Assembly: GCA_005116775.1 (NCBI GenBank)
Contig: SWDN01000011.1
Coordinates: 1-63,762, forward strand
DNA length: 63,762 bases
Source: Nitrospira sp.
GTDB lineage: Bacteria > Nitrospirota > Nitrospiria > Nitrospirales > Nitrospiraceae
Direction of reading: 5' to 3'
Below the pieces are notes generated by a model, which was given only the letters and a program-made list of their open reading frames with translations, had not been told where the DNA came from and did no database searches. A program made the translations under genes and the position numbers. Within the stretch, counting starts at the first letter, position 1. Each line of letters opens with the position of its first letter. Positions 6,172 to 58,383 of this stretch are shown here, one piece after another.

Positions 6172-6187
6172 TTAATACGGTTGTAAC
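6172..6187 (+). promoter_or_regulatory. PHO-box-like direct repeat before PhoB-like gene
   Basis: TTAATACGGTTGTAAC: the half-sites TTAAT and GTAAC start 11 bp apart (6172 and 6183). It differs from the pstS box (TTAACACGGATGTAAC at 19822-19837) at only two of 16 positions. A TTTATC -10 candidate lies about 10 nt downstream, as in PHO-box promoters where the second half-site replaces the -35. It suggests autoregulation of the regulator at 6270. Confidence 0.6.
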
Positions 6188-6269
6188 ATTGGAGGTTTAT
6201 CCTGACTTCACCCTATGCAGCCTCCACGGGATTGTCACCGAAGACTAGCGCCGAGCAGGCGGTAATACT

Positions 6270-6980
6270 ATGGCCACCCACACACCCAAGAAGATCCTGA
6301 TTGTCGAGGACGAAGCAGACATTGCGCAGTTGGTGAAACTATATCTTGAAAAAGATGGGTTTCGAACGACGGTCGCCACGACAGGCGCCGAAGGCCTCAA
6401 GCAGATTAAGTCCGATCGCCCCGATATGGTCATTCTGGATCTCATGCTCCCTGAGATGGATGGATTGGAGATCTGCAAGAAGATCCGTACAACGCCGGAC
6501 ACCGCCTTGCTCCCCGTCCTGATGTTGACGGCCAAGGCCGAGGAGTCCGACACCATCATCGGTCTCGAGCTGGGGGCCGATGACTACGTCACCAAACCGT
6601 TCAGCCCCAAAGTGCTGGTCACACGGGTGAAAGCATTGTTCCGTCGATTGGAGCGAACCGAAGACCCGAAACAAACATCCTATGCGTACGGTTCATTGCG
6701 AGTGGATCTCTCGCGACATGAAGCCTTGCTCGACGGCAAAGAAGTGTCCTTGACCGCAAAGGAATTTGGATTGCTCGAACAACTCCTGCACCATCCCGGC
6801 AGAGTGTTGACCCGCGATGTCCTCTTGAATACCGTGTGGGGCTACGATTACTACGGAACCACGAGAACCGTGGACGTGCATATCCGTAGGCTCAAACTGA
6901 AAATCCCGCTTCTCGACGAAGCCATCATCTCGGTCAAATCCCTCGGATACAAGCTGTCAGATCACATCCCTGTCAAATAG
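6270..6980 (+). CDS. PhoB/OmpR-family response regulator
   Basis: A 236-residue two-component regulator. The receiver domain (residues 6-120) has all key residues: acidic pocket Glu13-Asp14-Glu15, phospho-acceptor Asp57 (MVILDLMLPEMDG), Thr87 and Lys109 (DDYVTKPF). Residues 135-230 form the winged-helix effector with the typical LTAKEFGLLEQLL and VWGYDYYGTTRTVDVHIRRLKLKI motifs, closest by eye to PhoB. No histidine kinase is adjacent, so its partner is elsewhere. A PHO-box-like repeat about 85 bp upstream and the phosphate genes at 16.9-23.3 kb make it the best candidate for the phosphate regulator here. The symbol is left empty because PhoB-like orphans are common. Confidence 0.9.
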   Translation: MATHTPKKILIVEDEADIAQLVKLYLEKDGFRTTVATTGAEGLKQIKSDRPDMVILDLMLPEMDGLEICKKIRTTPDTALLPVLMLTAKAEESDTIIGLELGADDYVTKPFSPKVLVTRVKALFRRLERTEDPKQTSYAYGSLRVDLSRHEALLDGKEVSLTAKEFGLLEQLLHHPGRVLTRDVLLNTVWGYDYYGTTRTVDVHIRRLKLKIPLLDEAIISVKSLGYKLSDHIPVK

Positions 6981-6981
6981 C

Positions 6982-7299
6982 TTGCACCGGCAATCTGTAC
7001 AGATCACCAGGGAATGGACATGGCCTCTCATCTTTTCGTGTGGCCTCCTGCTTCTCGTTGCGTCTTGCAGCCATCCTCGAGTGGATGAATTCGAAGCCGG
7101 TATCGGCCAACTCACACAGGACGATTTGATCCGGCAATTCGGCTACCCTCAGCGGCTCAAGAAACTTCCGACTGGGAGCGAGGTGTGGGATTACGAATTC
7201 CTGGCGGGGAACTCTCGCTGTGTGGGGTACCGCGTCTACTTCGACGAAAACCGGCGCTCCCAACGCTGGGAGCCACAAGGTTGCAGATCCGACCGATAG
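6982..7299 (+). CDS. Small BamE/SmpA-like lipoprotein, TTG start
   Basis: A 105-residue lipoprotein with lipobox LVASC and a mature part containing IGQLTQDDLIRQFGYPQRLKKL and EVWDYEF, the SmpA/OmlA (BamE-like) pattern of a G/D-x-P turn followed by a Trp-rich strand. No in-frame ATG precedes the signal peptide, so the likely start is the TTG at 6982, one base after the stop of the upstream response regulator, implying co-transcription and translational coupling. It could help outer-membrane assembly, but small BamE-fold lipoproteins have varied roles. Related lipoproteins occur at 12861 and 16509. Confidence 0.7.
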   Translation: MHRQSVQITREWTWPLIFSCGLLLLVASCSHPRVDEFEAGIGQLTQDDLIRQFGYPQRLKKLPTGSEVWDYEFLAGNSRCVGYRVYFDENRRSQRWEPQGCRSDR

Positions 7300-7410
7300 C
7301 ATAGTCCGCGACGAGTCATTCACGCTGAGAAAGCGCTCGGCCAACAAAGCCCGTCCTCGATACCGTGTGACAATCTCGATCGGGCGGAAGGCGAACGAGA
7401 AATTTGACGA

Positions 7411-7447
7411 TTGACAAATCATAATATGTCCATTAGTCTGGACATAT
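7411..7447 (+). promoter_or_regulatory. ars promoter with ArsR operator overlapping the start codon
   Basis: A perfect 9-bp inverted repeat, ATATGTCCA (7424-7432) and TGGACATAT (7439-7447), is separated by 6 nt. It overlaps a promoter formed by TTGACA (7411-7416) and TAGTCT (7434-7439) with a 17-nt spacer, and runs into the arsR ATG at 7446. The predicted transcription start falls at or next to that ATG and there is no Shine-Dalgarno sequence, so arsR mRNA is probably leaderless and ArsR self-represses here. Confidence 0.7.
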
Positions 7448-7817
7448 GGATATTCAGAAGGCCCTCGCCGCTTTCAGTACGCTTTCGCAGGACACTCGCC
7501 TCCGGGTGTTTCGCTTATTGGTCGAATATGGCACGTCCGGAGCGCCGGCCGGCACGCTGAGCACGTCCTTAAACATCCCACATAATACGCTGTCGTTTCA
7601 CCTGTCGCACATGAGCCATGCAGGTCTCGTCGTGTCTCGACGTGAAGGCAGATCCGTGATCTACCGCGCCGATTTCGAGTTTTTTTCGAGGCTCATCCGT
7701 TACATGGCCGAAGACTGCTGCCGCGCCGAGTTTTCCACTATCCGAAATGACACAAAACGGAAATGTTCGATTATTGAGCTCTCACACTGTTGTGAACTGA
7801 AGGAGAACGTACCATGA
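7446..7817 (+). CDS. arsR: ArsR-family metalloid-sensing repressor
   Basis: A 123-residue winged-helix repressor. Residues 5-80 carry the ArsR pattern ALAAFSTLSQDTRLRVFRLL, then NIPHNTLSFHLSHMSHAGLV as the recognition helix and REGRSVIYRADF as the wing. Cysteine pairs occur after the DNA-binding domain (EDCCRAEF, then KRKCSI and SHCCEL), rather than the classic ELCVCDL in the recognition helix, so the As(III) site is likely built from C-terminal cysteines as in several non-canonical ArsR types. It starts at an ATG inside its own operator and its stop overlaps the arsI start (ATGA). It is the first gene of arsR-arsI-arsC. Confidence 0.9.
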   Translation: MDIQKALAAFSTLSQDTRLRVFRLLVEYGTSGAPAGTLSTSLNIPHNTLSFHLSHMSHAGLVVSRREGRSVIYRADFEFFSRLIRYMAEDCCRAEFSTIRNDTKRKCSIIELSHCCELKENVP

Positions 7818-9156: not shown

Positions 9157-9503
9157 TCGAATCTCCTTACCCGACATCATTCATGACGGCTCGTCTCGCC
9201 TAGCGGAACGTAGAACTTCGCACCTCGCCTGTCGCGCTTTTCCCGCCAGTCTTGCCCATCACACGTCAGTCTGACCCTGCGCCATTACACCCGGCACAAC
9301 AGCATGTTACAAGTTTGTTAACTTCTTCCTGGAAACAGGCTGCCACGACAGAACGCCCTCCCTCTTCGCGTCATTCACAAGTCGATTCAACTTCTTTCCC
9401 GTTTCCATGCAGACACACAGCACACGTTACACAAATTTGATCTGCCGCTGATCCTCTGGTGCCTTGAGCGTAGTAGAAGTACACCCACAGGGAGGTGACA
9501 CCG
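9157..9503. other. Divergent intergenic region
   Basis: A 347-bp region between a minus-strand lipoprotein and a plus-strand DksA-like gene. Apart from the PHO-box-like repeat at 9305-9322 I see no gene. A 62-codon frame at 9252-9440 has no ribosome binding site and no motif. Confidence 0.5.
9305..9322 (-). promoter_or_regulatory. PHO-box-like direct repeat
   Basis: On the minus strand this reads GTTAACAAACTTGTAACA: TAAC half-sites 11 bp apart, oriented toward the lipoprotein gene 8770-9156. The AAACTTG core resembles the flank of the boxes at 35168 and 43661. Confidence 0.45.
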
Positions 9504-12430: not shown

Positions 12431-12860
12431 CATCGACTCCTTCTCACATTTCCTCACTGCGCCGGACGAGACCAGCAACAGCGAGCGTGCCGCGATCCGT
12501 AGCGGCACACGAGGTTGATCGGCTACTTTTGGCCCATATCGTGCGGTCATTGGCGTTCCCTCCTTGCGCGCATGCGCGCAGCGCAGCGGACGGTCGCTCG
12601 CGGACAGAGGAAGAACCGAATGTATCGCGGGAACGGTCCTGAAGAAGCTGCAGTCTTCTTCTCCCCAACCCGCTGTCGGCATCCACACACGAGGGACTGT
12701 CTCAGGAGTCTGTTACGATTCGATCTGTCTATTCTCAATAACTCGTAACAGCGGCGTTAAGAGATGAATGCGCTCGGATAGCGCGCGCATCGAAAGAAGA
12801 TTTGCATCGACTCGGAGAAAAAGCGCAGGATTGACTCAATCGTGCGGTGGAGATTCGCCG
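12431..12860. other. Divergent intergenic region
   Basis: A 430-bp gap between the PhoX-like gene (-) and a lipoprotein gene (+). Short frames on both strands here lack ribosome binding sites. A weak PHO-box-like repeat, GTAAC at 12745 and GTTAA at 12756 (11 bp apart), lies in the middle. Confidence 0.4.
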
Positions 12861-16317: not shown

Positions 16318-16508
16318 CCGCACCTCCCTCTCACTTGCGCCCATCTATTCTGTACGATTCTCACGAAAGTATGGCAGACGACTGTTACAGGCGGGTTTCG
16401 TGATCCGAAACCCTTCAGGATCAACCCCTTCGCCGACCTTTCCCAACAGTGATCGATTGGACTGAGGGCAAACCATGGAAAGGGAGGCTGCCGGAATCCC
16501 ACCGTCCG

Positions 16509-17817: not shown

Positions 17818-18144
17818 GATGATCCACCTCCTTTGCGCTCAGGAGAAACCATGAACCCCATGGACAGAATCCCTGTAGAGCATGATGGAGAAATTGTACC
17901 CAGACTCAGATCACTAGGCCGTTGCAGTTGGATTATGAATCTGTAACATTTTTGCTCTTGACCGACCCTTCACCGCTTTAGACGCAGAAGATATTTCCTT
18001 GTCGGCGCTGGCTCGCAAGGCAGGCAAGAATCGCCCTCCCCCATGGTGAACTTCACTCGATGTAACAGAAGCTTAACTCGATCTTGAGCGAGTCGAACGT
18101 GCATGTCTTGTACTCTGCACCCACTGTACAACCTGGAGGCCTGC
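17818..18144. other. Divergent intergenic region
   Basis: No gene of usable quality; a minus-strand 105-codon frame at 17970-18287 lacks a ribosome binding site and overlaps the better-supported small gene on the plus strand. The region holds the PHO-box-like repeat at 18062-18077. Confidence 0.4.
18062..18077 (+). promoter_or_regulatory. PHO-box-like direct repeat
   Basis: GTAACAGAAGCTTAAC: GTAAC at 18062 and TTAAC at 18073, 11 bp apart, oriented toward the small gene at 18145. It also lies between phoU's operon and that gene. Confidence 0.5.
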
Positions 18145-18382: not shown

Positions 18383-18436
18383 CTTAACCCAAGATTGACA
18401 GGTCATAAATTTACGCGGTGGTAACGGGCTTCTAAC
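18383..18436 (+). promoter_or_regulatory. PHO-box-like repeats before CBS gene
   Basis: Two pairs of 11-bp-spaced half-sites: CTTAACC (18383) with ATTGACA (18394), and GTAAC (18421) with CTAAC (18432). Both point toward the CBS-domain gene at 18504. Confidence 0.5.
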
Positions 18437-19002: not shown

Positions 19003-19713
19003 TTAGGCTCGCAGCTTGTATCCCACACCCCTGACGGTCAGCAGGAATGCGGGACTGGCGGGGTTCTGCTCGATCTTCTGTCGCAGTGAATGGATATGCA
19101 CGTCGAGGGCATGCTCTTCGAGGGCATAGCCCTCTCCCCACACCCGATTGAGCATCTCCTGGCGCGAGAACACGCGGCGGGGCGACTCAAGGAACTGCTT
19201 GAGGATCTGGAACTCTTTCGGGGTCAGATCGACGGCACGGCCATTGACCAGAACTTCGTGACGATCGAGGTCCATCCGAAGATTCCCCGCGCTGTACTGA
19301 ATATTCGACTTGACGCCGGCCTCTCGGCGTCGAAGGATCGCGCGCACGCGAGCGACCAGTTCACGGACACTCTGGCCGCACACGACCAAATCGATATCCT
19401 GGTCATACTCTTGAAGACAGTCTTCCTCCTGGCAGGAGACACTTCCCTCCTCCACAGCGACAATGGGAACCGTGTTCAACGCTCTGACTCGTCGGAAGTT
19501 GGCGATGGAAGTGGATCGACGGTCGAGAATAATCAATGACGGCATATGTGCTTTCGCCTCTGCGAAGGCAAGGGACTCCGTCGGCACCACCGTGCTGAAA
19601 TACCCGCTCGTTTCCAGCGCCTTTTTTAACGCCTGCGCAAACGACTCGGACTTCAGAAAGATGAGCGCCGAGTCGCGCGCGCCTGGCATGGATGATTTAT
19701 CAGTCAGCATTGC
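19003..19713 (-). CDS. Response regulator with degenerate receiver, PhoB-like effector
   Basis: About 236 residues. Residues 130-235 are an OmpR/PhoB winged helix (LTPKEFQILKQFLESPRRVFSRQEML, LDVHIHSLRQKIE, LLTVRGVGYKL). The N-terminal receiver keeps its fold and a possible acceptor Asp63 (LIILDRRS), but the acidic pocket is lost (ALIFLKSES instead of an IxxVDDE pattern) and the conserved KP motif is replaced (DLVVCGQSV). It may therefore work without classical phosphorylation or sense something else. ATG 19713 is preferred over a TTG at 19743. It is divergent from pstS, suggesting a role in phosphate control. Confidence 0.82.
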   Translation of the reverse strand, partial: AMLTDKSSMPGARDSALIFLKSESFAQALKKALETSGYFSTVVPTESLAFAEAKAHMPSLIILDRRSTSIANFRRVRALNTVPIVAVEEGSVSCQEEDCLQEYDQDIDLVVCGQSVRELVARVRAILRRREAGVKSNIQYSAGNLRMDLDRHEVLVNGRAVDLTPKEFQILKQFLESPRRVFSRQEMLNRVWGEGYALEEHALDVHIHSLRQKIEQNPASPAFLLTVRGVGYKLRA

Positions 19714-19820
19714 ATAGCCATAATCACCCAAGCTGAACAACAAATCGTTACGGCAAAATTAAGTGTCCGTTAATTCGAATTGGCACAGTTCTATCAATAG
19801 AACGGAGCGTTCAGGTTGGA

Positions 19821-19837
19821 GTTAACACGGATGTAAC
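19821..19837 (+). promoter_or_regulatory. PHO-box-like direct repeat before pstS
   Basis: GTTAACACGGATGTAAC: GTTAAC (19821) and TGTAAC (19832), 11 bp apart. TGATCT, a -10 candidate, lies about 7 nt downstream. It is almost identical to the box before the PhoB-like gene at 6172. Confidence 0.65.
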
Positions 19838-19895
19838 CGTTCGCTGATCTGTCGGCAACGAAACCCCGGTACCATTGTAGGTGAAGGTTGAGCTG

Positions 19896-19985: not shown

Positions 19986-19992
19986 ACAGAGC

Positions 19993-23331: not shown

Positions 23332-23370
23332 ATTACAGACAAGTTACGGCTGTCTGCGGTAATGGTTAAC
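23332..23370 (-). promoter_or_regulatory. PHO-box-like repeats before the porin
   Basis: On the minus strand GTAACTTGTCTGTAAT gives half-sites 11 bp apart (plus-strand TTAC at 23344 and 23333). A further TTAAC on the plus strand at 23366 is 22 bp away, i.e. two helical turns. CATATT follows at -10 distance. Confidence 0.55.
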
Positions 23371-35046: not shown

Positions 35047-35167
35047 CGAGGTCCTTTCAACACATCTGCTCACTCTGCGCGAGACCCACATCAGATCTAG
35101 TCAAATTTCAGGTAGCGTAGTCTATCGCTCACAGATCGAGCGATGGCATCGCTAATCTCAAGTTTGT

Positions 35168-35184
35168 GTTAACTCAATGTTAAA
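35168..35184 (-). promoter_or_regulatory. PHO-box-like repeat before the exosortase block
   Basis: Plus-strand TGTTAACTCAATGTTAA has half-sites at 35168 and 35179, 11 bp apart. The flank CTCAAGTTTGTGTTAAC is shared with the box at 43661 before the other exopolysaccharide block. On the minus strand it reads TTAACATTGAGTTAAC, the same orientation toward its gene as in pstS. Confidence 0.6.
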
Positions 35185-43660: not shown

Positions 43661-43676
43661 GTTAACAAATCGTTAA
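43661..43676 (-). promoter_or_regulatory. PHO-box-like repeat before the exopolysaccharide block
   Basis: GTTAACAAATCGTTAA: GTTAAC (43661) and GTTAA (43672), 11 bp apart. It is preceded by CTCAAGTTTGTGTTAAC, the same 17 nt as at 35158-35174. Oriented toward the minus-strand genes that begin at 43470. Confidence 0.6.
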
Positions 43677-44531: not shown

Positions 44532-44648
44532 CGCGCCGTCCTTTCCTTCAACCCACGCACGTTGTCGCAGGGTCTGTATCCGGGTGTTCCTGTTGTAACA
44601 ACACAAGGATCGCTGCTGTCCCTACCATGTCTTGATACAAGCCGTGGA

Positions 44649-44663
44649 TAACAACTGTGTAAC
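44649..44663. promoter_or_regulatory. Weak PHO-box-like repeat
   Basis: TAACAACTGTGTAAC: TAAC half-sites at 44649 and 44660, 11 bp apart, but oriented opposite to the nearest gene (43884-44531, minus). Less convincing than the others. GTTGTAACAAC, a small palindrome, lies at 44593-44603. Confidence 0.3.
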
Positions 44664-48231: not shown

Positions 48232-48867
48232 TCAGGCCGGGGGGAAAAACTTGACAGTGACGGTTCGGTCCATGCCTTCAGGGGGAGGCCGGACTTGGGC
48301 GAGCTTGGATAAGGCTTCAAGAGCGGATTGATCGAACAGGAGACTTCCCGACGAATTGAGCAGACGGTACTGCAACACACGCCCCTGCTCATCGAGCACC
48401 AGTTCGCACATCACGGCATATTCAAGATCGTCCGGCAACGACGGCGGCTGCTGATAATTTGCCTGAATCGACGCCGTCAGAATATCCGTATAGCCAGCGA
48501 ATCGGCCCCGGCTCTTGCCGATTGCAAAAGGATTGGCATCCATTGGCGGCGGGCCGGTCGGCGCATCTGACGCCTTCGGTGGAGGCGGCGCTTCTGCCTG
48601 CGGAGGAGGAGGCGGAGGCGCTTCCTGAGGCTTCGGCTCCGGTTTCGGCGGTTCAGGCTCAGGCTCTGGCTCCGGTTCCTTCTCAGGAGGAGGGGGTGGG
48701 TCTTCTTTCCTAAACGCGTTGAGCTTGTAGACCTTGATCATGTCTTGCCCCCATTCGGTTTGCGACACCCAATAGAGGCCCGCGCCGATCCCAAGATGGA
48801 CCACTCCGACAATCAACAGCGTCGTGCCGAGCTTGCTCTTCTTTTTTTCAAAACCCTTGTAGCCCAT
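48232..48867 (-). CDS. TonB/TolA-like energy transducer
   Basis: A 211-residue protein. The N-terminal membrane anchor (KLGTTLLIVGVVHLGIGAGLYWVS) is followed by a long Pro/Glu-Lys linker (PPPPPEKEPEPEPEPEPP then PPPKASDAPTGPPP) and a C-terminal TonB/TolA-like domain (ANYQQPPSLPDDLEYAVMCELVLDEQGRVLQYRLLNSSGS, then LDFDQSALEAL-like DQSALEALSKLAQVRPPPEG). With ExbB and ExbD it would transmit proton-motive force to the outer membrane. No Shine-Dalgarno sequence is visible; a CGTGAAG repeat array runs to the ATG. It is the last gene of the TPS-Ton operon. Confidence 0.85.
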   Translation of the reverse strand: MGYKGFEKKKSKLGTTLLIVGVVHLGIGAGLYWVSQTEWGQDMIKVYKLNAFRKEDPPPPPEKEPEPEPEPEPPKPEPKPQEAPPPPPPQAEAPPPPKASDAPTGPPPMDANPFAIGKSRGRFAGYTDILTASIQANYQQPPSLPDDLEYAVMCELVLDEQGRVLQYRLLNSSGSLLFDQSALEALSKLAQVRPPPEGMDRTVTVKFFPPA

Positions 48868-49004
48868 TGTGAAACTCGTGAAATGTCAAACGTGAAGCGT
48901 GAAGTGTTGCTCAGGAGTGGAGTTTCTTTTTTCAGGTTGTCAGGAGGGTGTCTCCGAAAATTCGATACGCTTCACGCTTCACGAACGACGCCTCTCACGC
49001 TTCG
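48868..49004. repeat. CGTGAAG repeat array between exbD and tonB
   Basis: Several 7-nt units (CGTGAAG/CGTGAAA) at about 48868-48905, then inverted units (CTTCACG) at about 48963-48995, in a 137-bp intergenic space. Units occur as tandem pairs such as CGTGAAGCGTGAAG. Confidence 0.65.
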
Positions 49005-49418
49005 CTAGGGATCGATCGGTTTTGTGGCTATGGCCAAATCCTCGACGGGAATCTTTTGAAGCACATCCAGCACCGCCACAACATGTTTATACTCCACACC
49101 GGAATCTCCGCGGAGCACGAGCGGCAACTTGCCGCCCTTGGCCGCTTTCAAATCGCGAATCAGTTTTTCCAGTTCGCCGAGCTTCACCCGTTCCTCATCC
49201 ATGTAGATGTCGCCGCCCTTTTTCACCGAGATGGTCGGCGTATTGCTTTCCATGTCCGTTTCATGCGGCGTAGACTCAGGCAATTTCAGCTCAATGCCCT
49301 GCACCATCGCCGTCGTCGTGATGATAAAAATCACCAACAGCACCCAAGCCAGGTCGAGCAGCGGCGTGATATTGATATCCGACACCGCCCCATGACTCTT
49401 CTTCGAAAAGCGTCTCAT
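49005..49418 (-). CDS. ExbD/TolR-type biopolymer transport protein
   Basis: A 137-residue protein with one N-terminal membrane helix (INITPLLDLAWVLLVIFIITTTAMV) containing the conserved Asp of the proton path (TPLLDLAW), and a periplasmic domain ending with KLPLVLRGDSGVEYKHVVAVLDVLQ. It works with ExbB. It has only a weak ribosome binding site. Repeat arrays lie on both sides. Confidence 0.88.
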   Translation of the reverse strand: MRRFSKKSHGAVSDINITPLLDLAWVLLVIFIITTTAMVQGIELKLPESTPHETDMESNTPTISVKKGGDIYMDEERVKLGELEKLIRDLKAAKGGKLPLVLRGDSGVEYKHVVAVLDVLQKIPVEDLAIATKPIDP

Positions 49419-49429
49419 TCTTTCACCGT

Positions 49430-49631
49430 ATCTCGTCGTTCGTGAAGCGTGAAGCGTCGTCGTATTTCGTGTGAGTGACTAGCATATGAAACTCCATTCG
49501 CGATTCGCTCGACGTCGTTTCACGTTCCCAGACGCTTCACGTTTCACGCCGTTGATGAGTCACCTTACCTCTCACGCCTTACGCTTCACGTCCCCAAACG
49601 TTTCACGTTTCACGAGGTGCGCTTCACGTCC
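49430..49631. repeat. CGTGAAG repeat array between the four-helix-bundle gene and exbD
   Basis: A run of direct and inverted CGTGAAG units (CGTGAAGCGTGAAGCG, later CGCTTCACGTTTCACG and CGTTTCACGTTTCACG) filling about 200 bp. It ends close to the stop of the four-helix-bundle gene. Confidence 0.65.
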
Positions 49632-49985
49632 TTAGAGCTTCTTGACCAAGTTCCGCAGCATTCTCGTTTCATGATCGAGCTTCTCAATGATGAGATCCCG
49701 GATATTCGGTTGGACAAATCCAAGGTCCGACGATATCTCCACCTGCGTTTCCAGTTCGGCACAGGAACCCAATGCAATGAAAAGAAATTGCCGATATTCC
49801 TTGTTATGAAACCGATTGAACCCTTCCGCCACATTCGATGGAATCGAAACCGATGCTCTTCGCATTTGCGCGGCTAAGCCGTACGCCTCGACCTTGGGGT
49901 ATGCAGCGGTCGCTCGATAGACGTCCAGCACGATCTCTTTCCCCATTTTCCATACATCCAAATCTCGAAAGTTTCGAATCTTCAT
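49632..49985 (-). CDS. Four-helix-bundle protein (23S rRNA intervening-sequence type)
   Basis: A 117-residue helical protein: MKIRNFRDLDVWKMGKEIVLDVYRAT, YGLAAQMRRASVSIPSNVAEGFNR and FLFIALGSCAELETQVEISSDLGF are the hallmark motifs of the family (the NxAEG motif included). Such genes are found inside 23S rRNA intervening sequences and as solitary genes in repeat-rich islands; the biochemical function is unknown. GGAGGGG precedes ATG 49985. It sits between exbB and exbD, bounded by CGTGAAG arrays, and interrupts an otherwise standard operon, which suggests an insertion. Confidence 0.88.
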   Translation of the reverse strand: MKIRNFRDLDVWKMGKEIVLDVYRATAAYPKVEAYGLAAQMRRASVSIPSNVAEGFNRFHNKEYRQFLFIALGSCAELETQVEISSDLGFVQPNIRDLIIEKLDHETRMLRNLVKKL

Positions 49986-50039
49986 GGGTCCCCTCCTGTG
50001 CCGCAAACCCTATCATGCTATGCGGCCTCTGAGGAACAC

Positions 50040-50157
50040 CCTGTCAATTCGTGAAGCGTGAAACGTCATGCGTGAAGCGTCCGAATCCGAAACGAGATAC
50101 GCTTCACATCTTTGTCTTCCCCCGCGCTTCACGCTTCACGACCAACGCTTCACGTCT
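50040..50157. repeat. CGTGAAG repeat array between exbB and the four-helix-bundle gene
   Basis: Direct units (CGTGAAGCGTGAAACG and a later CGTGAAGCG) followed by inverted ones (CGCTTCACGCTTCACG, CGCTTCACG). The array forms the second flank of the four-helix-bundle insertion. Confidence 0.65.
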
Positions 50158-50940
50158 TCAGTGTCCGGTAGCCGCGCCGGACGGCTCCGCCTCTTGGCGG
50201 TGCCCGCCGGGACGGTAGTCTTCAATATCTTCCGCCGCCGCCGCCGCGCCGCTCTTCTCGCGGAGAAAGTCCGTGATAAATACGGTTTCGAGATGGGCGG
50301 CAAAGTTATCGAGTTCCATCGTGAGCGTTTTGGTCTTGGTCACCAGAAAGTTGTAGCAAAAGAGCGAGGGGATCGCGACCATGAGGCCCGCGACTGTGGC
50401 GATCAAGGCCGACGCCACGCCGGGAGCCATCGTTGTCAATGTCGCTTGCTGCGCTCGTCCGATTCCTGAAAAAGTGTCCATGACTCCCCAGACCGTTCCG
50501 AGCAATCCGATAAAGGGACCGCCGCTGATCGCCGTCGCCAGCACGATCATCCCCGACTCCAGCCCCACCGCCGCTTCACCGAGGACTCGCTCCAGCGCGA
50601 TTCTCACGGCGCTCATGCCGTGATTCGGCACTTTGTCGGTCCCGTACTTTTGCTGCTGCACCTTTAATTCTTCGCACCCGCCGTAATAGAGCTCGTACAT
50701 CGGAGAGCCCTGGAGCTGCTTGATCGATCCCTTGCTGAAGATCACCAACGGGCTTTTTGCCTTGGAATAGAGATCGAGAAAAACTCCGTTCCGCTTTTTG
50801 GCCCTTGCCAATTGACGGAACTTGTTGATGATCACCGTCCAGCTGACCAGCGAGAATACGAGCAAGACGGAAATCGTGATCTTGCCCTCCAGCGTCGCGT
50901 GACTCAGCGCGAACGCCACTCCACCTGAACCCATATCCAT
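50158..50940 (-). CDS. ExbB/TolQ-type proton channel
   Basis: A 260-residue MotA/TolQ/ExbB protein with three helices: about 15-38 (GKITISVLLVFSLVSWTVIINKF), 130-150 and 175-200. The hallmark region AISGGPFIGLLGTVWGVMDTF and TMAPGVASALIATVAGLMVAIPSLFCYN is present. The C-terminal tail is Ala/Glu-rich. AAGGAG precedes ATG 50940, which follows the tpsA stop by 22 bp, so this channel is in the same transcription unit as the two-partner secretion genes. Confidence 0.9.
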   Translation of the reverse strand: MDMGSGGVAFALSHATLEGKITISVLLVFSLVSWTVIINKFRQLARAKKRNGVFLDLYSKAKSPLVIFSKGSIKQLQGSPMYELYYGGCEELKVQQQKYGTDKVPNHGMSAVRIALERVLGEAAVGLESGMIVLATAISGGPFIGLLGTVWGVMDTFSGIGRAQQATLTTMAPGVASALIATVAGLMVAIPSLFCYNFLVTKTKTLTMELDNFAAHLETVFITDFLREKSGAAAAAEDIEDYRPGGHRQEAEPSGAATGH

Positions 50941-50962
50941 TCGCAGGACTCCTTCCTCGTGT

Positions 50963-53900
50963 TTAACCGCCCGACTTTATTTCCGGCTTCACATCGACCT
51001 GAATGACGACTCCGTGCTTCATGCGGACGGATTTCGCCAGTTGGCTCTTGCGATCTTTTTCACCGTCTTTGTTCGACGCCATCTCTTTGGTTTGAGAGTT
51101 CTGACTGGCTACCTCAGCGGCGGATTCTTGAACGGAGTCAGAAGACTTGGCCGAGGTGCTGACCGCTGCAGAAGTGGCTGAAGCAGATGCGCTTGCCGAA
51201 CTTCCGGACACTGGAGCGATAGGCGCTGTGACACCCCCTGACCCGGTTCCGACGACGACTGACGGGCCGCTGACATTCACCGTTGGAGGAATGAACACAT
51301 TGCCGACGATGCTGCCGCCCTGGAAATTCACCGTCGGCGCGAAAATTTCGACCCTTCTTCCCTGAATGCCGGCGGGCGGGATATCGACGCTGACCCGTTC
51401 GGACACCAGGGCGAGGTCTCCCAGTTTCAGGGAGTTGATGTAGGGCTTCAACTGGGTCTCGTTGAAGATCGGTTCGCGTAGAGCCTTTAACCGGTTCGCT
51501 TCCGCCACCAGCGCCGACGAATCCTTTCCGAAGAACTGCTCTCTCTCGGCTTTGAGCAGTAGCGCCTCGATTTCAGGATCCTTGAATTCAATAAACGTGA
51601 GTGGGCGAGGGTCGTTCGGATGGAACGTCGAGATTCCACTGGCCGGCACGCGGATTGTGAATCTGACGATGCTACCGTCAGGACGCGTCTGCTCGACGAT
51701 CTGCTCAACTGCCTCATTTCTCGATCCGCTCCCAGCATTGATCCTGCCATGTGTCGAAGTGAGGTTGATGTCTCCTCCATTGAACGTCGAGATACGCGAG
51801 GTCTCCACGTCGATGTTACCTTTGGCAAAGGTATCGATGGCTCCACCTCCCAAGGTTACAATCCCGAGTGGAGTGCCCTTGGTATCGGGGTTTGTGGCGC
51901 TGGACCCGACGGTCACGACGCCAGGAATGGACTGGACCTTCGTCACTTGACTGGACGGGACCAGCATCACGGTCCCGTCGGCTGCCACCAGCACGAAGTT
52001 CCCCTCGACGAGCACCGGATCGAATCCTGACAACTTTTGGGATGGGTCGATCGGGGCTTCCGCTCTCAGGACCTGAACCGGCTGGCCGTTCTTGGTGAGA
52101 AGGGCGTCTCCTCGCTCCACAAGACTCAGGTGCAGCGTCACAGGATCGGCTAGGATTTGCGCTCCATCGAGCACGACAGGCTCTCCCTTAAAGTTTACGG
52201 TCTTGCCGGCGACTTGGATGACAGATCGGCCCCCGACTTGAACCACCGTGCCGACGACCGCCACCGGTTTTCCATCCACCACAAGAGGGACGCCGCTCGC
52301 ATCCACGAGCCGATCGACGCCCGGTCCATGGAGAGAAATTGTAGCTCCGTTGTAGGAGGCGATCCGCGACCGGTCCATTTTGATCGACCCTCCCACCTCC
52401 ACGTCGAGAAAGCCCCCTTTGTCGACGTCTGAGGTCGGCTCCGGCAGGAAACGGAAGTTGATCCCGGTGCTGTCCGCCAGATCCAACAGGCCTCCCACCT
52501 TCACCCTCGCGGTGCCGGTGCCGGCAAAAGTCAAGTCGCTTGGAGAGGCCTTTCCGGTCGTTGCCGCGCTCCTCATGTTGAGGCTTCTACCTGCTTTGAC
52601 CGTGGCGACGACTCCCTCCGAGACTCCGATGGTCGCTCTCACCGCCTCTATATCCGTCGCGGCCTGCAGCGTCACGCGCTTGTGGTACGGGACGCTCCCA
52701 AGCTCGAAATTGACCGTCTGGATCTTGCCGGACCTGGCCTCGACCACGACATCCTGGACTGAGTGCACTGGAACGTTCGCCGCCTTGTTCCCCGATTTAA
52801 GAGCTGAAGCGAATTGATTCGGGTTGAATGTTCTGTTGAGGAACGGCTGTATATCGATTTCATGCAGCTTGATCGTCGGCGCGGTCGTTTTGACCGTAAT
52901 GAGTGGAAGCCCGCTGGACGGCTTCTCAATATTATTGAAAACCTGGAAGTCTTTGGTCCAGATAAAGGGACTCAGTTTGGGGTCTCGGACTGCCTCCTTG
53001 AAATTGACCAGCCTCCATTGTCCTCCCGGCACATTCTTGAACCCGACGAAGATGTAGCCGAACCTTTCATCAGCAACTTGCTCGTCGATCTGCACACCGA
53101 CGATGTCCTTTCCTGCCGAGAGTCTGAGTGCGCCGGTTGTCGAGGGCCAGAAACTCACATCGCTCTCGATAAAGATGTTCCCGTTTTCCGTCTCCGCAAT
53201 GAAGGAAGCAGGATAGATCGCCCGAGCGATATCGATTCCGCTCGATCCCGTGACCCTAGGATTGAGGAAAATGTCTTCCTTCGCCTTGAGCACGACCAGA
53301 TTCGAAGGGTCGACCGTCAACCTAATGGTGCCGGTGGTATCGGAGGCGCCCTTGTCCTGAACCCTTCCGAGGTAAATGCTGCCGGACTTGGCCGTAAGAT
53401 TGATGGTCCCCTTGCCCAGCGTGAGGTTCGCATACTGGTCGGAGTCGGTCGCAGTGACCCCCTTCTGAGCCCCGCCGATATTGCGCCCCGCTGTCACGGT
53501 GGCCGTGCCGTTGGCCAGAACGAATCCAGGACCAATAAACTGGCCGCTGACAGAGCCGCCGACAACATCCCTTCCGGCGGTGATCGTCAGATTTCCTGGT
53601 CCGTCCAGACGAATTCCGGCGAGGAGCCTCGGAAGCAGATTATTGACTCGTACGGTCGGGCTGATGATATCGAGCCCGGCGACCAGGGCGAGGTTGCCGC
53701 CAGCAGCGGAGATCCTCAACGTCGAGAGCTGCCCGAATGAATTGACCAGGTTGATGTTCCCGTTGGGCGCAGAGAACTGCATGTGGCCGCCGGACCCGGT
53801 GGCCACATGCGAGTTGCTGAAGAAGATATCGCCGGCCGCCGATCCGACATAGTCCCATCTGGTCCCCGAATTGTCGTTCGTGAGCCGCGCGTTGTCAAAG

Positions 53901-55159
53901 CGCAAGTTTCCACCGGCGACGAAGCTCAACGTGCCGGTGGCCCCGGACAAGTTCCATCCGGCACCGAGATCGTACTGCCCCGTGACGACTAAGTCGCTGC
54001 CAACGGGCGACTGAAAGGTGACTTCCGACGCGCCGCTGCCCTCGAAACTCGCGAACTCGGTGGGTCCTACGGTCGACGTCGTGACCGTCGGATCGATCAA
54101 GAATCGCCCACCCTTGAATCCGGCGATCGCGCGGCCGAGAAACTGGCCGCCCAATCTCACGGTTGCGCCGCTCACTTCGGCAAATCCTCCATTGCCTCCG
54201 TTCTTGCCTCCGGACACGTCCACCACGGCGCCCTTCTGAAAAGTCGCTGTGCCGTTCTTCAAGTCGGCGATGGCCCGGATCGTGCCCCCGTGTGAAACTC
54301 CTTCATCGCCTCCGCGCGCGAGGGTGCGGCTCCCATCCTTCAGCGTGACGGCTTCGCTGGCGAGCAATTCGATCTTTCCATGTCGCTCGCGCACGCTGTC
54401 GGCCCGGATCAAGCCTTCTTGATTGACCATCCGGCCGGCCAAGGTGATACTGCCGCCGTCCGCGATCAGATCCTTCACATTCACGGCTTGTCCGAGAGGG
54501 TTGGAGAGTTCGGCGAGAAACCCGCGTCCGTCTGGCCTGTTCGAAAGAAAGGCCTTCGCGCCGGCAGCCAAGACGATATTCCCTCCTGGACTCGTGATGA
54601 CCCCGCTGTTTTCGACATTAGGCGCCAGCAGATACACGCCGCCATGCGAGGCATTGATGGCGCCCATGTTCTTGACGAGGCCTTCGATGCCCGTTCCCTG
54701 GAACAGATAGTGGCCGGCGAGGAAATTGGCGCTCGACAGATTCAGAGACGAGGCGATCAACCCACCGACATCGACCTGCGCATTGGGGCCAAACATGATG
54801 CCGTTGCGATTGAGAAGGATCACCGTTCCATTGGCGCGTAGTGATCCGAGTATTTGGCTGGGGTTCTGATCGAAGATATGATTGAGCGCAATCGCCTGGG
54901 CATTCGGTTGAATGAACTGCGTCACTTCGTTCTGCGCGATATTGAACTGCTGCCAGTTAATGATGGCCTGCTGGGAGGCCTGCGCGATCGTGACGTGCGA
55001 CGTGCCGAGGCCTGACACCGCCGCCTGGCCTCCGACCACGTCCGGCCCGATCGGATTGGCCAAGACGACGGGGACGACGATCAGTTGCGCAAGATACGCC
55101 AGGAGAATCAGACCGGAGATAACCCGTTTGTGTGTCATGGTGTTGCGATCCTTGTTCAT
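50963..55159 (-). CDS. TpsA exoprotein (filamentous hemagglutinin N-terminal domain)
   Basis: A 1398-residue secreted beta-helix protein. After an extended signal (MTHKRVISGLILLAYLAQLIV region), the TPS secretion domain spans about 38-280: NWQQFNIAQNEVTQFIQP, the NRNGIMFGPNAQVDVGGLIASS motif, GGVYLLAPNVENSGVITSPGG. Beta-helical repeats continue to about 1150, and a Ser/Ala linker plus a basic C-terminal segment (KSQLAKSVRMKHGVVIQVD) ends the chain. The ATG at 55159 overlaps the tpsB stop (TGATG); an ATG at 55138 is possible. It is secreted by TpsB. Large adhesin or biofilm matrix role is likely. Confidence 0.9.
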   Translation of the reverse strand: MNKDRNTMTHKRVISGLILLAYLAQLIVVPVVLANPIGPDVVGGQAAVSGLGTSHVTIAQASQQAIINWQQFNIAQNEVTQFIQPNAQAIALNHIFDQNPSQILGSLRANGTVILLNRNGIMFGPNAQVDVGGLIASSLNLSSANFLAGHYLFQGTGIEGLVKNMGAINASHGGVYLLAPNVENSGVITSPGGNIVLAAGAKAFLSNRPDGRGFLAELSNPLGQAVNVKDLIADGGSITLAGRMVNQEGLIRADSVRERHGKIELLASEAVTLKDGSRTLARGGDEGVSHGGTIRAIADLKNGTATFQKGAVVDVSGGKNGGNGGFAEVSGATVRLGGQFLGRAIAGFKGGRFLIDPTVTTSTVGPTEFASFEGSGASEVTFQSPVGSDLVVTGQYDLGAGWNLSGATGTLSFVAGGNLRFDNARLTNDNSGTRWDYVGSAAGDIFFSNSHVATGSGGHMQFSAPNGNINLVNSFGQLSTLRISAAGGNLALVAGLDIISPTVRVNNLLPRLLAGIRLDGPGNLTITAGRDVVGGSVSGQFIGPGFVLANGTATVTAGRNIGGAQKGVTATDSDQYANLTLGKGTINLTAKSGSIYLGRVQDKGASDTTGTIRLTVDPSNLVVLKAKEDIFLNPRVTGSSGIDIARAIYPASFIAETENGNIFIESDVSFWPSTTGALRLSAGKDIVGVQIDEQVADERFGYIFVGFKNVPGGQWRLVNFKEAVRDPKLSPFIWTKDFQVFNNIEKPSSGLPLITVKTTAPTIKLHEIDIQPFLNRTFNPNQFASALKSGNKAANVPVHSVQDVVVEARSGKIQTVNFELGSVPYHKRVTLQAATDIEAVRATIGVSEGVVATVKAGRSLNMRSAATTGKASPSDLTFAGTGTARVKVGGLLDLADSTGINFRFLPEPTSDVDKGGFLDVEVGGSIKMDRSRIASYNGATISLHGPGVDRLVDASGVPLVVDGKPVAVVGTVVQVGGRSVIQVAGKTVNFKGEPVVLDGAQILADPVTLHLSLVERGDALLTKNGQPVQVLRAEAPIDPSQKLSGFDPVLVEGNFVLVAADGTVMLVPSSQVTKVQSIPGVVTVGSSATNPDTKGTPLGIVTLGGGAIDTFAKGNIDVETSRISTFNGGDINLTSTHGRINAGSGSRNEAVEQIVEQTRPDGSIVRFTIRVPASGISTFHPNDPRPLTFIEFKDPEIEALLLKAEREQFFGKDSSALVAEANRLKALREPIFNETQLKPYINSLKLGDLALVSERVSVDIPPAGIQGRRVEIFAPTVNFQGGSIVGNVFIPPTVNVSGPSVVVGTGSGGVTAPIAPVSGSSASASASATSAAVSTSAKSSDSVQESAAEVASQNSQTKEMASNKDGEKDRKSQLAKSVRMKHGVVIQVDVKPEIKSGG

Positions 55160-57021
55160 CAAAACGCAAGGCCGACGGAGAAATGCACAAACGTGTCGCC
55201 CCGTTTCGTATTCAAGGTCTCTTCGAGCGCGAATCCTTGATCGATGATGAGCTGCCCCACATCTTTGGGAAACTTCACTCGAATCCCGCCTCCCACCCCT
55301 TCGAGCCGGAATTGCGACGTCTGTCCCGGTTGGGCTTGCTGCACCCAGAGTTGGGCAATATCGTAGAAGGCCGCGAGTTTCACTCTGATGGTGTAATCTG
55401 CACTGCGGCGGCGCTGCCAGATTCGATCGATCGGAATGGCGATGAGTTCAGGAGTGGTCAGTTCCGCCCGGCCGCGGACAGCATTGTCGCCGATCGCTTC
55501 ATACTGGAGGTAGCCTCGGACCGTATCGAAGCCTCCGGCGAAATAATTCTCGGCAGGTATCAATGGCTGGCTGCCCCATTGGCCGTCTGCATGCAGCGCC
55601 AACATAAAGTCTCCCGGCAAGGGCTGCACCCGATCGAGCCCGCCCTGCAGCACCGCAAACGTCCCTGTCGATCCTTGGCGATTGCCCGGCTGGCCCAACG
55701 GATCGTTGGGATTTCCGGCAAAATCTTCCTTCGCTCCGCCTGGGATGGTGCCCGCAACATAGCCCTTGGCCGATAGAGACAGTTTCGTGAGCCCCAATCG
55801 ATCTGGATAGAATCCGGAATAGGCCACTGAGACCGGGGTATATTGAACGGGACTCTTCACCACCGCGGTCCCACCATCGGGAAATGTCGCGTTCGTGGGC
55901 TCCAACCGTTTGTAGTCGACCCCGATCGACAATTGATGCGTGGCCGTTCCTCCGGGAAAGAGCGGAATAATATAGCGAAGCCCGGCGACAGTGGCGTTGC
56001 CGGCAACCGCAACATTGCCCCCTCCTCCAACGGTAATGCCCGACCCAGCCAACACCGATTGACTTTGCGAGTAGGACGCGTAGACGGCCAGCAGATGATC
56101 CGGCCATTTCACCGGATAGACGAAACTCGCTCCATAGTTCTGAACCGCTCCCCAATCCGTCGGCGTCTGGACCGTATTGACCGTAAAAATTTCGTCGCCG
56201 CCGAAGAGATTGGTATGCTGAACTTCTGCGAGCAAACGATTTGATGGGGTCGTGATCGGTCCTCTGTTATCGGCCTCCAATTTCCCATGGACCGGCAGAC
56301 GATCCTTCACTTTGAGTTCGAGGCCTACCGTTCCAGGCTCCGCGCCCGGCTTCAGCACCGGCGACACTTGAAGGTCCGGGTTGGCGTTGACTGCCGAGAG
56401 TTCTTTCACAAACTTGGGTTCATAGAGCACTGTTCCCAGCTGAATAGACGGCATTTTTTCGAGAATACGGTATTTGCTGTAATGCTCCTGCCCCGTTACC
56501 TTGATCTCGACGAGAGGGGCTTCAATCACTTGTAGTGTGACGCTACCCTGCTCGACGGTCTGCTCCGGGAGGTTCACCAGAACGGTGGGATACCCTGCCG
56601 TGTGATACGCCTTTTCCAGTTCGACGCGCGCCTGGTCGACGTCCTTGAATTGGAAAACAGCGCCTTTGTATTTGTCGAGGATCGCGTCGATTTTTTCTTG
56701 AGGTAAGATCGTGTTGCCCTCGACAATGAACTTCGAGAGGGTGACGGCACCCGATTTTTCTGGTTCCGGCTTGCCGTCCTGTTTCGAGAAAGGACCGTTC
56801 GTAACGGTTCGCCCTTGTTCGGCTTGGCTCGTTCCCCGATCGTTCATGCGCTGTTCCTGGTCATTCATGCGCGGGGCAGACGACGCCTGCCGGTTACCTG
56901 GCGAAGAAACGATCCCCGAATCCTGGCGGTTCATGGCTTCCCCCATGGCTTCCGTTGTCGCCGCGAGCCACACGGAGCACACGATTATCACGGCGCATGC
57001 CTTCTCCAACTGGTCTTTCAT
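55159..57021 (-). CDS. TpsB two-partner-secretion outer-membrane transporter (FhaC/ShlB type)
   Basis: A 620-residue Omp85-superfamily transporter. Signal peptide, then an unusually long disordered region (about residues 30-90, with RMNDQEQRMNDRG-type repeats), two POTRA domains (from VTLSKFIVEGNTILPQEKIDAIL and SVTLQVIEAPLVEIKVTG), and a 16-strand-type barrel with the loop-6 motif VRGY in FDTVRGYLQYEAIG and a final strand FVHFSVGLAF. It exports the TpsA encoded next. A GGAG ribosome binding site precedes ATG 57021. A PHO-box-like pair lies 170 bp upstream. Confidence 0.93.
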   Translation of the reverse strand: MKDQLEKACAVIIVCSVWLAATTEAMGEAMNRQDSGIVSSPGNRQASSAPRMNDQEQRMNDRGTSQAEQGRTVTNGPFSKQDGKPEPEKSGAVTLSKFIVEGNTILPQEKIDAILDKYKGAVFQFKDVDQARVELEKAYHTAGYPTVLVNLPEQTVEQGSVTLQVIEAPLVEIKVTGQEHYSKYRILEKMPSIQLGTVLYEPKFVKELSAVNANPDLQVSPVLKPGAEPGTVGLELKVKDRLPVHGKLEADNRGPITTPSNRLLAEVQHTNLFGGDEIFTVNTVQTPTDWGAVQNYGASFVYPVKWPDHLLAVYASYSQSQSVLAGSGITVGGGGNVAVAGNATVAGLRYIIPLFPGGTATHQLSIGVDYKRLEPTNATFPDGGTAVVKSPVQYTPVSVAYSGFYPDRLGLTKLSLSAKGYVAGTIPGGAKEDFAGNPNDPLGQPGNRQGSTGTFAVLQGGLDRVQPLPGDFMLALHADGQWGSQPLIPAENYFAGGFDTVRGYLQYEAIGDNAVRGRAELTTPELIAIPIDRIWQRRRSADYTIRVKLAAFYDIAQLWVQQAQPGQTSQFRLEGVGGGIRVKFPKDVGQLIIDQGFALEETLNTKRGDTFVHFSVGLAF

Positions 57022-57027
57022 GCTCCA

Positions 57028-57159
57028 TTACTGTCCCCAAAAAACAGAGAATTTCGTGCTCTGCTCAGGGAGATTGTCCATACCCTGGATCAGGGCGAAG
57101 TCTTCTGTGTAGTTCTGCTGTCCGAAAGCGATCGGCTCACGCTCGAGGGATTCACTCAT
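57028..57159 (-). CDS. Possible 43-residue leader peptide before tpsB
   Basis: A short frame beginning MSESLEREPIAFG and ending KFSVFWGQ just 6 bp before the tpsB start. No ribosome binding site is visible and its composition is not distinctive, so it may be only 5' untranslated sequence. It is noted because it lies between the PHO-box-like site and the operon, where the transcription start is expected to be close to its ATG. Confidence 0.25.
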   Translation of the reverse strand: MSESLEREPIAFGQQNYTEDFALIQGMDNLPEQSTKFSVFWGQ

Positions 57160-57187
57160 AACTAGAGTGAAGAAATACTGGCACGAC

Positions 57188-57226
57188 GTTACGGAATTGT
57201 TATCGAGGCATTTTCCGGCTGTTAAT
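57188..57226 (-). promoter_or_regulatory. PHO-box-like repeats between TPS operon and gspC-like gene
   Basis: On the minus strand ATAACAATTCCGTAAC places TAAC half-sites 11 bp apart (plus-strand TTAC at 57189, TTAT at 57200). A TTAA at 57222 is two turns further. It points to the TPS operon; the divergent gspC-like gene begins at 57297. Confidence 0.5.
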
Positions 57227-57296
57227 TCTTGTAAACGACGGAAATTAAGACTGTTTCGCTCTTGCCAGCGAGGCCGGCTTGTTGCTAGGAAGAGCC

Positions 57297-58268
57297 ATGC
57301 GCTCGACTCTCCCGATTCCCAGCACACGAAAGCTGATGCTCTGCCTGTGCCTGGGCCTCTCGACCTTCATAACCGCACACATTGTGAACGCCTTTGTCGA
57401 TCACGCGCTGTTCGTGCCGGACACGCTTCCTCCGCCGGCGCCTCCGCAGGACAATATCCTCCGGCCTTCGGCGCCCCCTCAGCAATTGGCGCAGGACCTC
57501 ATGACTCGCGGTCTGTTTGCGCTACCAGAAGAATTATCGCAGGGCGCAAGATCTTCGGCAGGCGCTAGACTAGGCCCTCCCCTCGAAGCGGCTAAGAAAC
57601 TGTTGCTGCATGGCACGGCGCTTGGCATAGGCGATGAGCCGATAGCGATCGTTCAGGACCTATCGAATCAGCAGCAGAAATTGCTGCATCTTCATGACCG
57701 TGTTCTTAACGTGGGCGAGATTGTTTCCATCGAAAAAACTCGTGTCTTGTTCCAAGACAGGGGACAAGAGGAATGGCTTGAATTGGCTATGCTCACCGAC
57801 TTGGAACAGGCCCGGCGCATGCCGCCTCTTCCGGGGTCTTTACAAGAACGGCCTCCTGCTCTCACGCAGCCGGCCCGCTCCACACACTCTGCCGGGCTCT
57901 CCCGGGTCGTATCGCTGACTTCCGGTGTCTCTTCTGCCGGCAACGGTCGGCCGATTCAAATCGTCGATCGTCGTGAATTGTCCAAAATTCTCTCGGACAT
58001 GCCTCTGCTGTTATTACAAGCCCAACCGGTCGTATCGATGATCGAAGGACGGTTCGACGGCCTGTTGTTGGAAGCGGTGCGCTTTGAGGGACTGTATTAC
58101 AAGATGGGGTTGCAGTCCGGCGACATTCTGAAGCGAATCAATGGCGTGGAAATTCGCGAGCCAGGCATGCTCATTACCGCCGTTGAGCAGATGAAGGACG
58201 AACACAGAGTGAAACTGGATATTGTCCGTGGTCAGACGCCGCGCACGATTACGGTCGATATCCACTGA
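57297..58268 (+). CDS. GspC-like PDZ protein of type II secretion type
   Basis: A 323-residue inner-membrane protein: cytoplasmic start, one helix (LMLCLCLGLSTFITAHIVNAF), a Pro-rich linker, a homology region (LLLHGTALGIGDEPIAIVQDLSNQQQKLLHLHDRVLN) and a C-terminal PDZ domain (GRFDGLLLEAVRFEGLYYKMGLQSGDILKRINGVEI). This order (helix, HR domain, PDZ) matches GspC, the clutch of type II secretion. No other gsp gene lies in the window. AGGAAGAG precedes ATG 57297. It is divergent from the TPS operon and may be linked to it. Confidence 0.75.
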   Translation: MRSTLPIPSTRKLMLCLCLGLSTFITAHIVNAFVDHALFVPDTLPPPAPPQDNILRPSAPPQQLAQDLMTRGLFALPEELSQGARSSAGARLGPPLEAAKKLLLHGTALGIGDEPIAIVQDLSNQQQKLLHLHDRVLNVGEIVSIEKTRVLFQDRGQEEWLELAMLTDLEQARRMPPLPGSLQERPPALTQPARSTHSAGLSRVVSLTSGVSSAGNGRPIQIVDRRELSKILSDMPLLLLQAQPVVSMIEGRFDGLLLEAVRFEGLYYKMGLQSGDILKRINGVEIREPGMLITAVEQMKDEHRVKLDIVRGQTPRTITVDIH

Positions 58269-58356
58269 CCGATCCGACAGTCTCGATCGCCTCCCTGCGT
58301 ACATCCGCATGACAGGGTTTCACATCTCCGATCTCCCCCACTCGATCGCCGTCAAA

Positions 58357-58383
58357 TTAACTGAATGTTAATCTTCGTGTAAT
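58357..58383 (+). promoter_or_regulatory. Triple PHO-box-like repeat
   Basis: TTAA at 58357, TTAA at 58368 and GTAA at 58379: three half-sites each 11 bp apart, oriented toward the outer-membrane protein gene at 58486. Confidence 0.55.

Follow-up and report, generated by a model that had tools for sequence, protein, structure and literature searches.

Contig C3 (SWDN01000011.1) of a Nitrospira metagenome-assembled genome (2.67 Mb, about 70% complete) carries in its first 63,762 bases, analysed here and referred to as the window, arrays of TGTAACA-like half-sites arranged in tandem at an 11-bp pitch. These pairs are very probably Pho boxes, bound by a PhoB-like response regulator through which phosphate shortage would induce uptake, scavenging and surface operons. 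Judged by sequence, the boxes are real and of Pho type and constitute, in cis, a Pho regulon, because they precede two pstS genes and two porin genes in separate loci, a PhoX-like phosphatase gene and the gene of a PhoB-like regulator, recur at the orthologous genes of relatives, and exhibit the -10 geometry of PhoB-dependent promoters. The predicted direct phosphate control of the exosortase, exopolysaccharide (EPS) and two-partner secretion (TPS) genes in this lineage is well supported in cis. The boxes of the window are as follows (fractions give the orthologues with a box; ORF, open reading frame).

6172..6187, plus strand: Pho-type box TTAATACGGTTGTAAC before the gene of the PhoB-like regulator RR-A, with TATCCT 10 nt downstream (2/2)
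9306..9321, minus strand: box TTAACAAACTTGTAAC before a small lipoprotein-like ORF (2/2)
12745..12760, minus strand: box TTAACGCCGCTGTTAC before the PhoX-like phosphatase gene (3/3)
16384..16399, minus strand: box GAAACCCGCCTGTAAC before the methylglyoxal synthase gene mgsA, with CATACT 10 nt on (1/2)
18062..18077, plus strand: box GTAACAGAAGCTTAAC, no convincing gene in the window
18384..18436, plus strand: box-like pairs (18384, 18410, 18421) before a CBS-domain protein gene (4/6)
19747..19773, minus strand: three half-sites in 11-bp register before the gene of the regulator RR-B (7/7)
19822..19837, plus strand: box TTAACACGGATGTAAC before pstS (7/7)
23332..23347, minus strand: box GTAACTTGTCTGTAAT before the Porin_O_P porin gene, with TATTCT 10 nt on (6/6)
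35168..35183, minus strand: EPS-type box TTAACATTGAGTTAAC heading the xrtD operon (4/4 close loci, window included)
43661..43676, minus strand: EPS-type box TTAACGATTTGTTAAC heading a glycosyltransferase/EPS operon (identical 16-mer in 3/3)
44648..44663, plus strand: box ATAACAACTGTGTAAC without a convincing gene
57172..57226, minus strand: TPS promoter with four half-sites (offsets 0, 11, 22 and 33, that at 11 being degenerate), followed by TATTTC
58357..58383, plus strand: three half-sites before an outer-membrane beta-barrel gene (6/6)

Searches with the pattern KTAAC-N6-KTAAC, allowing at most one mismatch on both strands, revealed 20 matches in the window (17 distinct sites at 14 promoter positions, three near-palindromic sites being counted on both strands), against a mean of 3.02 and a maximum of 8 in 100 dinucleotide shuffles; the shuffled-sequence check named in an earlier note on this DNA thus does not reach the observed frequency. 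Eighteen of the matches are intergenic, although a rough ORF model assigns 89% of the window to coding sequence, and the remaining two (18062 and 57188) lie inside doubtful ORFs. Half-sites spaced by 11 bp occur 20 times, as compared with 0–9 times for each of the spacings 6–10 and 12–24. The whole genome contains 105 matches, 20 of which fall within the window, i.e. within 2.4% of the sequence (Poisson probability 1.3e-13), at a density about 10 times that of the remaining genome; the enrichment is local. Exact pairs number 12 genome-wide, 5 of them in the window; on contig C23, a second pstS and the porin gene next to it are each preceded by one of the seven others.

All nine 11-bp pairs listed in the earlier note are present, with at most one mismatch to the pattern on one strand, and the 16-mers before the PhoB-like gene and pstS (at 6172 and 19822) do differ at 2 of 16 positions, as had been stated. 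The assertion that the boxes face their genes holds for every non-palindromic box with a convincing gene, but four of them required reading on the minus strand: the porin, exosortase, EPS and TPS genes are encoded there, and it is on this strand that their boxes give the best reading (23332-, 35168-, 43661-, 57188-), while the site at 58356/58357 reads equally well on both strands. Five boxes or arrays had been overlooked (9306-, 12745-, 16384-, 19747/19758-, 44648+), which stand before plausible or unclear units. The small gene that had been placed after the 18062 box is not convincing. A box similarly placed and oriented stands before the gene of a choice-of-anchor-I protein in N. lenta and RSF3; DNA comparison did not align this stretch, and the correspondence of the boxes is presumed. 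No choice-of-anchor-I ORF was seen at the corresponding place in the window, and the 18062 box is therefore probably an orphan.

Comparison with related genomes, which the earlier note had called for, confirmed that the boxes are conserved. An 11-bp pair was found in 50 of 54 promoters of orthologues of 12 boxed genes (at least 38% identity and at least 40% coverage, ten doubtful ORFs left out), as opposed to 5 of 103 for orthologues of unboxed genes, a contrast confounded by the many operon-internal unboxed genes and by the non-independence of orthologous promoters. The spacing control within the same 54 promoters is safer: other spacings were found in 0–9 of them, except for 22 bp, i.e. two pitches (35/54). 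Promoters cut by the end of a stretch, such as that of tpsB in G020, were dropped; the ten orthologue records probably represent eight genomes (L013 = G013, L016 = G030, L014 = G025), and no promoter was counted twice. Some of the boxes of CBS orthologues may serve a divergent neighbour gene. Two of the five boxed exceptions belong to orthologues of the gene 14734-15681, which is unboxed in the window; both orthologues examined (G012 and G018) exhibit a one-mismatch pair about 113 bp upstream. Across the order, the second pstS (pstS2) has a box in 26 of the 28 promoters that could be read, including that of the window's own genome, and the array often comprises three or four half-sites (at 2 of the 30 loci the pstS start was unreadable; the two box-less promoters are those of G030 and G066). 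In alignments, the box stands out as an island of conservation upstream of xrtD (4 sequences) and of tpsB (9 sequences).

Among the surface genes, xrtD has a box just upstream in 4/4 loci with identities of roughly 79% and above (window included), the EPS operon in 3/3 orthologues, and tpsB at 9 of 10 loci of at least 55% identity (window included). The extension of the regulon to surface genes, as suggested in the earlier note, is thus upheld for close relatives, while other XrtD lineages are mostly boxless (see below). In the more divergent G020, whose EPS/xrtD operons differ in composition from those of the window, xrtD itself is unboxed; an EPS-type box stands at the head both of its apparent operon and of the EPS operon that follows. 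A VPLPA-CTERM-type protein is preceded by an exact box in G020 and G009 (the G020 copy, L247:597-1382, scores 26.5 bits with the TIGR03370 model, above the cut-off of 25.35), and in G018 an exact box precedes an apparent orthologue, of which only the start is in view. In the window, ORF 47170-47889 (25.7 bits) is above this cut-off and ORF 45026-45727 (25.0 bits) just below it. TpsA possesses the TPS domain (PF05860, 81.6 bits, cut-off 33.5) and its gene is adjoined by a conserved tpsB, identified by reading its sequence; the two hallmarks of two-partner secretion are the domain and this neighbouring, putative TpsB partner. The 18 distant TpsB homologues (L090-L107; L108 and L109 are outside the set) revealed no pair at the gene; in three of them, a one-mismatch pair is located about 1.1 kb upstream of the matching region, in front of another ORF.

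The geometry of the promoters provides further evidence. Among 85 promoters, which are related rather than independent, the dinucleotide TA was found at +15 from the start of the last half-site, i.e. 10 nt after it, in 32 cases, and TAnnnT in 18. The runner-up offset, +26, is one pitch further (TA 14/85, TAnnnT 12/85), and the other offsets between 5 and 35 gave TA in 0–10 promoters. Of the 30 pstS2 loci, 23 entered this count (L196, L202, L206, L211, L213, L217 and L218 were left out; L196, L211 and L217 have a box). The E. coli phoA sequence exhibits the same arrangement, with two half-sites 11 bp apart, 10 nt, and then TATAGT. The promoters therefore look like the sigma-70 type with boxes replacing the -35 element.

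The genome encodes two close PhoB-like proteins, PhoB1 on contig C4, with no box in front of its gene (TIGR02154, 239.1 bits), and RR-A in the window, whose gene is boxed (231.1 bits). Both are called PhoB-like here and placed outside the TIGR02154 equivalog (cut-off 296.2), which is reached by a protein in only 2 of 14 control genomes. The recognition helix RTVDVHIRRL is identical in RR-A, PhoB1 and E. coli PhoB. The kinase adjoining PhoB1 scores 406.9 bits with the PnpS model NF046044 (cut-off 400) and 300.8 bits with the PhoR model TIGR02966, below its cut-off of 334.2. In 22 of the 27 order-level relatives that have both, no more than 10 kb separates pstS from a gene of the PhoB1 family (47–70% identity). 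We infer that the tandem half-sites would be bound by a phosphorylated PhoB-like regulator, which could be PhoB1, paired with its PhoR/PnpS-type kinase, and/or RR-A. The bound regulator would replace the -35 element and place the sigma-70 polymerase on the -10 element ten nucleotides downstream. Phosphate shortage, the presumed signal, would thereby activate uptake (pstS, porins), scavenging (the PhoX-like phosphatase) and RR-A itself in a positive feedback, and in this lineage also the putative XrtD exosortase/EPS operons, the TPS-ExbBD-TonB operon and the outer-membrane/CYTH-CHAD operon. The cell surface would then probably be remodelled under phosphate shortage.

Several observations weigh against this interpretation. 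The pattern is rarer genome-wide than its reversed control (105 versus 468 with one mismatch, 12 versus 24 exact), and no commoner than that control in five relatives either; the reversed control differs in composition, and reliance was placed on shuffles, spacing, location and conservation. Because the pattern is not enriched genome-wide over this control, only location, spacing and conservation argue for the boxes. Neither PhoB-like protein reaches the TIGR02154 cut-off, and PhoB1 is not beside pst in the genome of the window. A good -10 at the expected place is lacking in the EPS promoters and in that of the pstS in the window. The box is missing from mgsA of G012, CBS of G012 and LEN18, and xrtD of G020, i.e. 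it is kept in only 4/6 CBS and 1/2 mgsA orthologues. Fourteen further XrtD loci (no operon run was obtained from five of the stretches, and four were short) are mostly boxless upstream, with spacing-11 pairs summing to 6 and other spacings to 0–11; among them an exact pair heads the apparent operon in G027 and a one-mismatch pair lies about 0.3 kb before the gene in G032. Other pairs before xrtD are more remote (one-mismatch at 2.6 kb in G055, a one-mismatch triple at 5 kb in G033, and an exact pair at 8.8 kb in G027). A weight-model genome scan, also proposed in the earlier note, cuts both ways. With 16 boxes of phosphate genes as its training set, 6 of them from this genome, the model gave 7 matches with E<=10, namely these 6 and the untrained RR-B promoter, the latter in favour of the boxes; it listed mainly training sites, was unable to judge weaker boxes, and did not list the xrtD, EPS and TPS boxes. 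Finally, the boxes of xrtD and EPS are TTAAC/TTAAC variants, which might be read by RR-B, the regulator encoded in the island.

This last point leads to the strongest alternative, an unlikely one in our estimate, that two regulators operate, with PhoB reading GTAAC-type boxes and the atypical RR-B reading the TTAAC-type ones that precede xrtD, EPS and the gene of RR-B itself. Second half-sites of the GTAAC type are found in most phosphate and TPS promoters, and those of the TTAAC type before xrtD and EPS, and also before the island pstS in some relatives. The recognition helix of RR-B (HALDVHIHSL) differs from that of the PhoB-like proteins, and its receiver is without the acidic pair and the lysine of receiver domains. 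The six genomes with a box at the head of an xrtD/EPS operon (the window, G009, G012, G018, G020 and G027) all carry RR-B (at least 65% identity), but RR-B is located in the same island, and co-inheritance would produce the same picture. Counted on both strands (palindromes twice), exact TTAAC-N6-TTAAC pairs number 4–8 per genome in the 10 genomes that have a close RR-B versus 0–4 per genome in the 12 without it; however, GTAAC-type pairs are also commoner in the former (2–5 versus 0–3 per genome). Moreover, G028 has a close RR-B and no box in the 15 kb before xrtD, its exact EPS-type pairs being on another contig, and the xrtD boxes keep the PhoB spacing, with TATTGG or TATTGA at the -10 place in three relatives. 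As a separate observation, one exact TTAAC pair, TTAACTGCCAGTTAAC, recurs in many Nitrospira genomes irrespective of the presence of the island. A related scenario, which we consider doubtful though conceivable, is that the surface island (pst, XrtD/EPS, TPS-TonB) carries a phosphorylation-blind RR-B that rewrote the Pho box to TTAAC/TTAAC, which would make exosortase-dependent surface building a second tier of the response.

That RR-B alone could be the general regulator of all boxes is very improbable: it adjoins pstS and its own promoter is boxed, but the pstS2 box is kept in 18 of 19 readable genomes without RR-B (including G026, whose sole match is 32% identical within a 555-aa frame), a distribution that largely refutes this reading and because of which RR-B, on sequence grounds, is not an obligatory reader of the boxes. 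CtrA-type boxes controlling the cell cycle have practically no credibility, as only the spacing agrees (the CtrA box, TTAA-N7-TTAA, has the same 11-bp pitch), while the organism is a Nitrospira, several targets are phosphate genes, and PhoB1 and RR-B score 151.6 and 61.1 bits with the CtrA model (cut-off 350), which was run on the PhoB-like proteins and not as a whole-genome search. Chance AT-rich intergenic pairs, a reading that the genome-wide rarity of the pattern would favour, are equally hard to credit and are refuted for the conserved sites by the shuffles, the spacing specificity, and the conservation of the pstS2 and orthologous boxes.

Returning to the Pho regulon, the genes of the window that bear on it are listed below.

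6270..6980, plus strand: RR-A (phoB2), PhoB-like response regulator
8770-9180, minus strand: small lipoprotein-like ORF, no family match
10901-12688, minus strand: PhoX-like phosphatase
15847-16344, minus strand: methylglyoxal synthase (mgsA)
from 16976: PhoU
from 18441, plus strand: CBS-domain protein
19003..19743, minus strand: RR-B, OmpR/PhoB-type regulator with a degenerate receiver and altered recognition helix
19888..21036, plus strand: pstS (TIGR02136, 212 bits, cut-off 206.6)
21845-23275, minus strand: Porin_O_P porin
23472-43470: EPS/exosortase block including XrtD
33421..35091, minus strand: XrtD exosortase, VPLPA-CTERM specific (TIGR04152, 530.3 bits, cut-off 400)
48232..57021, minus strand: TPS operon (tpsB 55159-57021, tpsA 50963-55162, exbB 50158-50940, exbD 49005-49418, tonB 48232-48867; tpsB, exbB and tonB were named from reading their sequence, not from profiles)
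from 57279: GspC-like gene adjoining tpsB
58423-59283, plus strand: outer-membrane beta-barrel protein
from 59375: CYTH-CHAD protein, following the beta-barrel gene

The real start of pstS is probably downstream of the ORF start at 19888: the beginning of the ORF (19888-19990) reads as an NQTNKTNQ-like repeat, which matched many unrelated Nitrospira loci and is probably a dispersed intergenic repeat rather than protein. RR-A is adjoined (7446-8769) by genes of an ArsR-like helix-turn-helix protein, a glyoxalase-looking protein (by eye) and an ArsC-like protein (below cut-off), which are found also in G020. The mgsA box with CATACT at the -10 place is shared by the window and G018 and missing from G012. 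Between exbB and exbD there is a small ORF (49632-50006), four-helix-bundle-like by eye, for which the searched stretches of relatives yielded no orthologue. Elsewhere in the genome, the ORF after the second pstS (L110:14096-16152, G000:C23) begins as a PstC-like protein (by comparison with RSF3) and terminates with the final 46 residues of PstB, PhoU coming next; relative to RSF3 (L017), the locus is without pstA and the greater part of pstB, owing to a deletion or an assembly collapse. A 474-aa protein (L117:1267-2691, G000:C8; 448–555 aa in the frames of relatives) comprises a secreted-looking N-terminal part and a membrane segment fused to an RR-B-like DNA-binding part, adjoins a PEP-CTERM-like protein, and is possibly a membrane-tethered regulator.

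If correct, the prediction defines, at the sequence level, a Pho regulon of Nitrospira, which are key nitrite oxidisers of soil and wastewater. Phosphorus limitation would then directly induce the matrix polymer, sorting by the exosortase and a TPS exoprotein, with a bearing on the formation of flocs and biofilms. No paper joining Pho box with Nitrospirae, or PEP-CTERM with phosphate limitation, was found in one open-access library (subscription papers not covered), where exosortase and phosphate starvation, and Nitrospira and Pho regulon, do co-occur. In N. moscoviensis, pstS was transcribed and not detected in the proteome, according to PMC8407350.

The half-site of the E. coli Pho box is CTGTCAT; that of Nitrospira is close to TGTAACA and often occurs in three or four copies. 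Unlike E. coli, the Nitrospira genome encodes two PhoB-like paralogues, and its predicted targets include exosortase/EPS and TPS genes. As in the E. coli Pho regulon, phosphate genes are preceded by direct repeats at 11 bp (PMC3978041 describes the PhoB site of E. coli as two of them), the core of the recognition helix is identical and, as in phoA, the last half-site (GTCAC in phoA, GTAAC in Nitrospira) is followed by 10 nt and the -10 element. As in other XrtD/VPLPA-CTERM systems associated with EPS genes, XrtD scores above the curated cut-off and candidate VPLPA-CTERM-type proteins are nearby; unlike them, the operons of this lineage are headed by Pho-type boxes. The closest parallel for the TPS operon is found in P. 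aeruginosa, where, according to PMC5422565 and PMC7035377, a TPS system with exbBD-tonB is under phosphate control by PhoBR and PUMA3, the hxc-lapA-pdtA-phdA-pdtB-exbB2-exbD2-tonB4 locus responding to PhoB and sigma-VreI (PMC7035377). The predicted Nitrospira arrangement shares with the pdtAB locus the TPS pair, exbB-exbD-tonB, type II secretion genes and control by phosphate starvation, a grouping thus recurring in another phylum; it differs in gene order and in the Pho-type box directly before tpsB, and its type II secretion genes are a GspC-like gene adjoining tpsB and a gspK adjoining the second porin-pstS locus.

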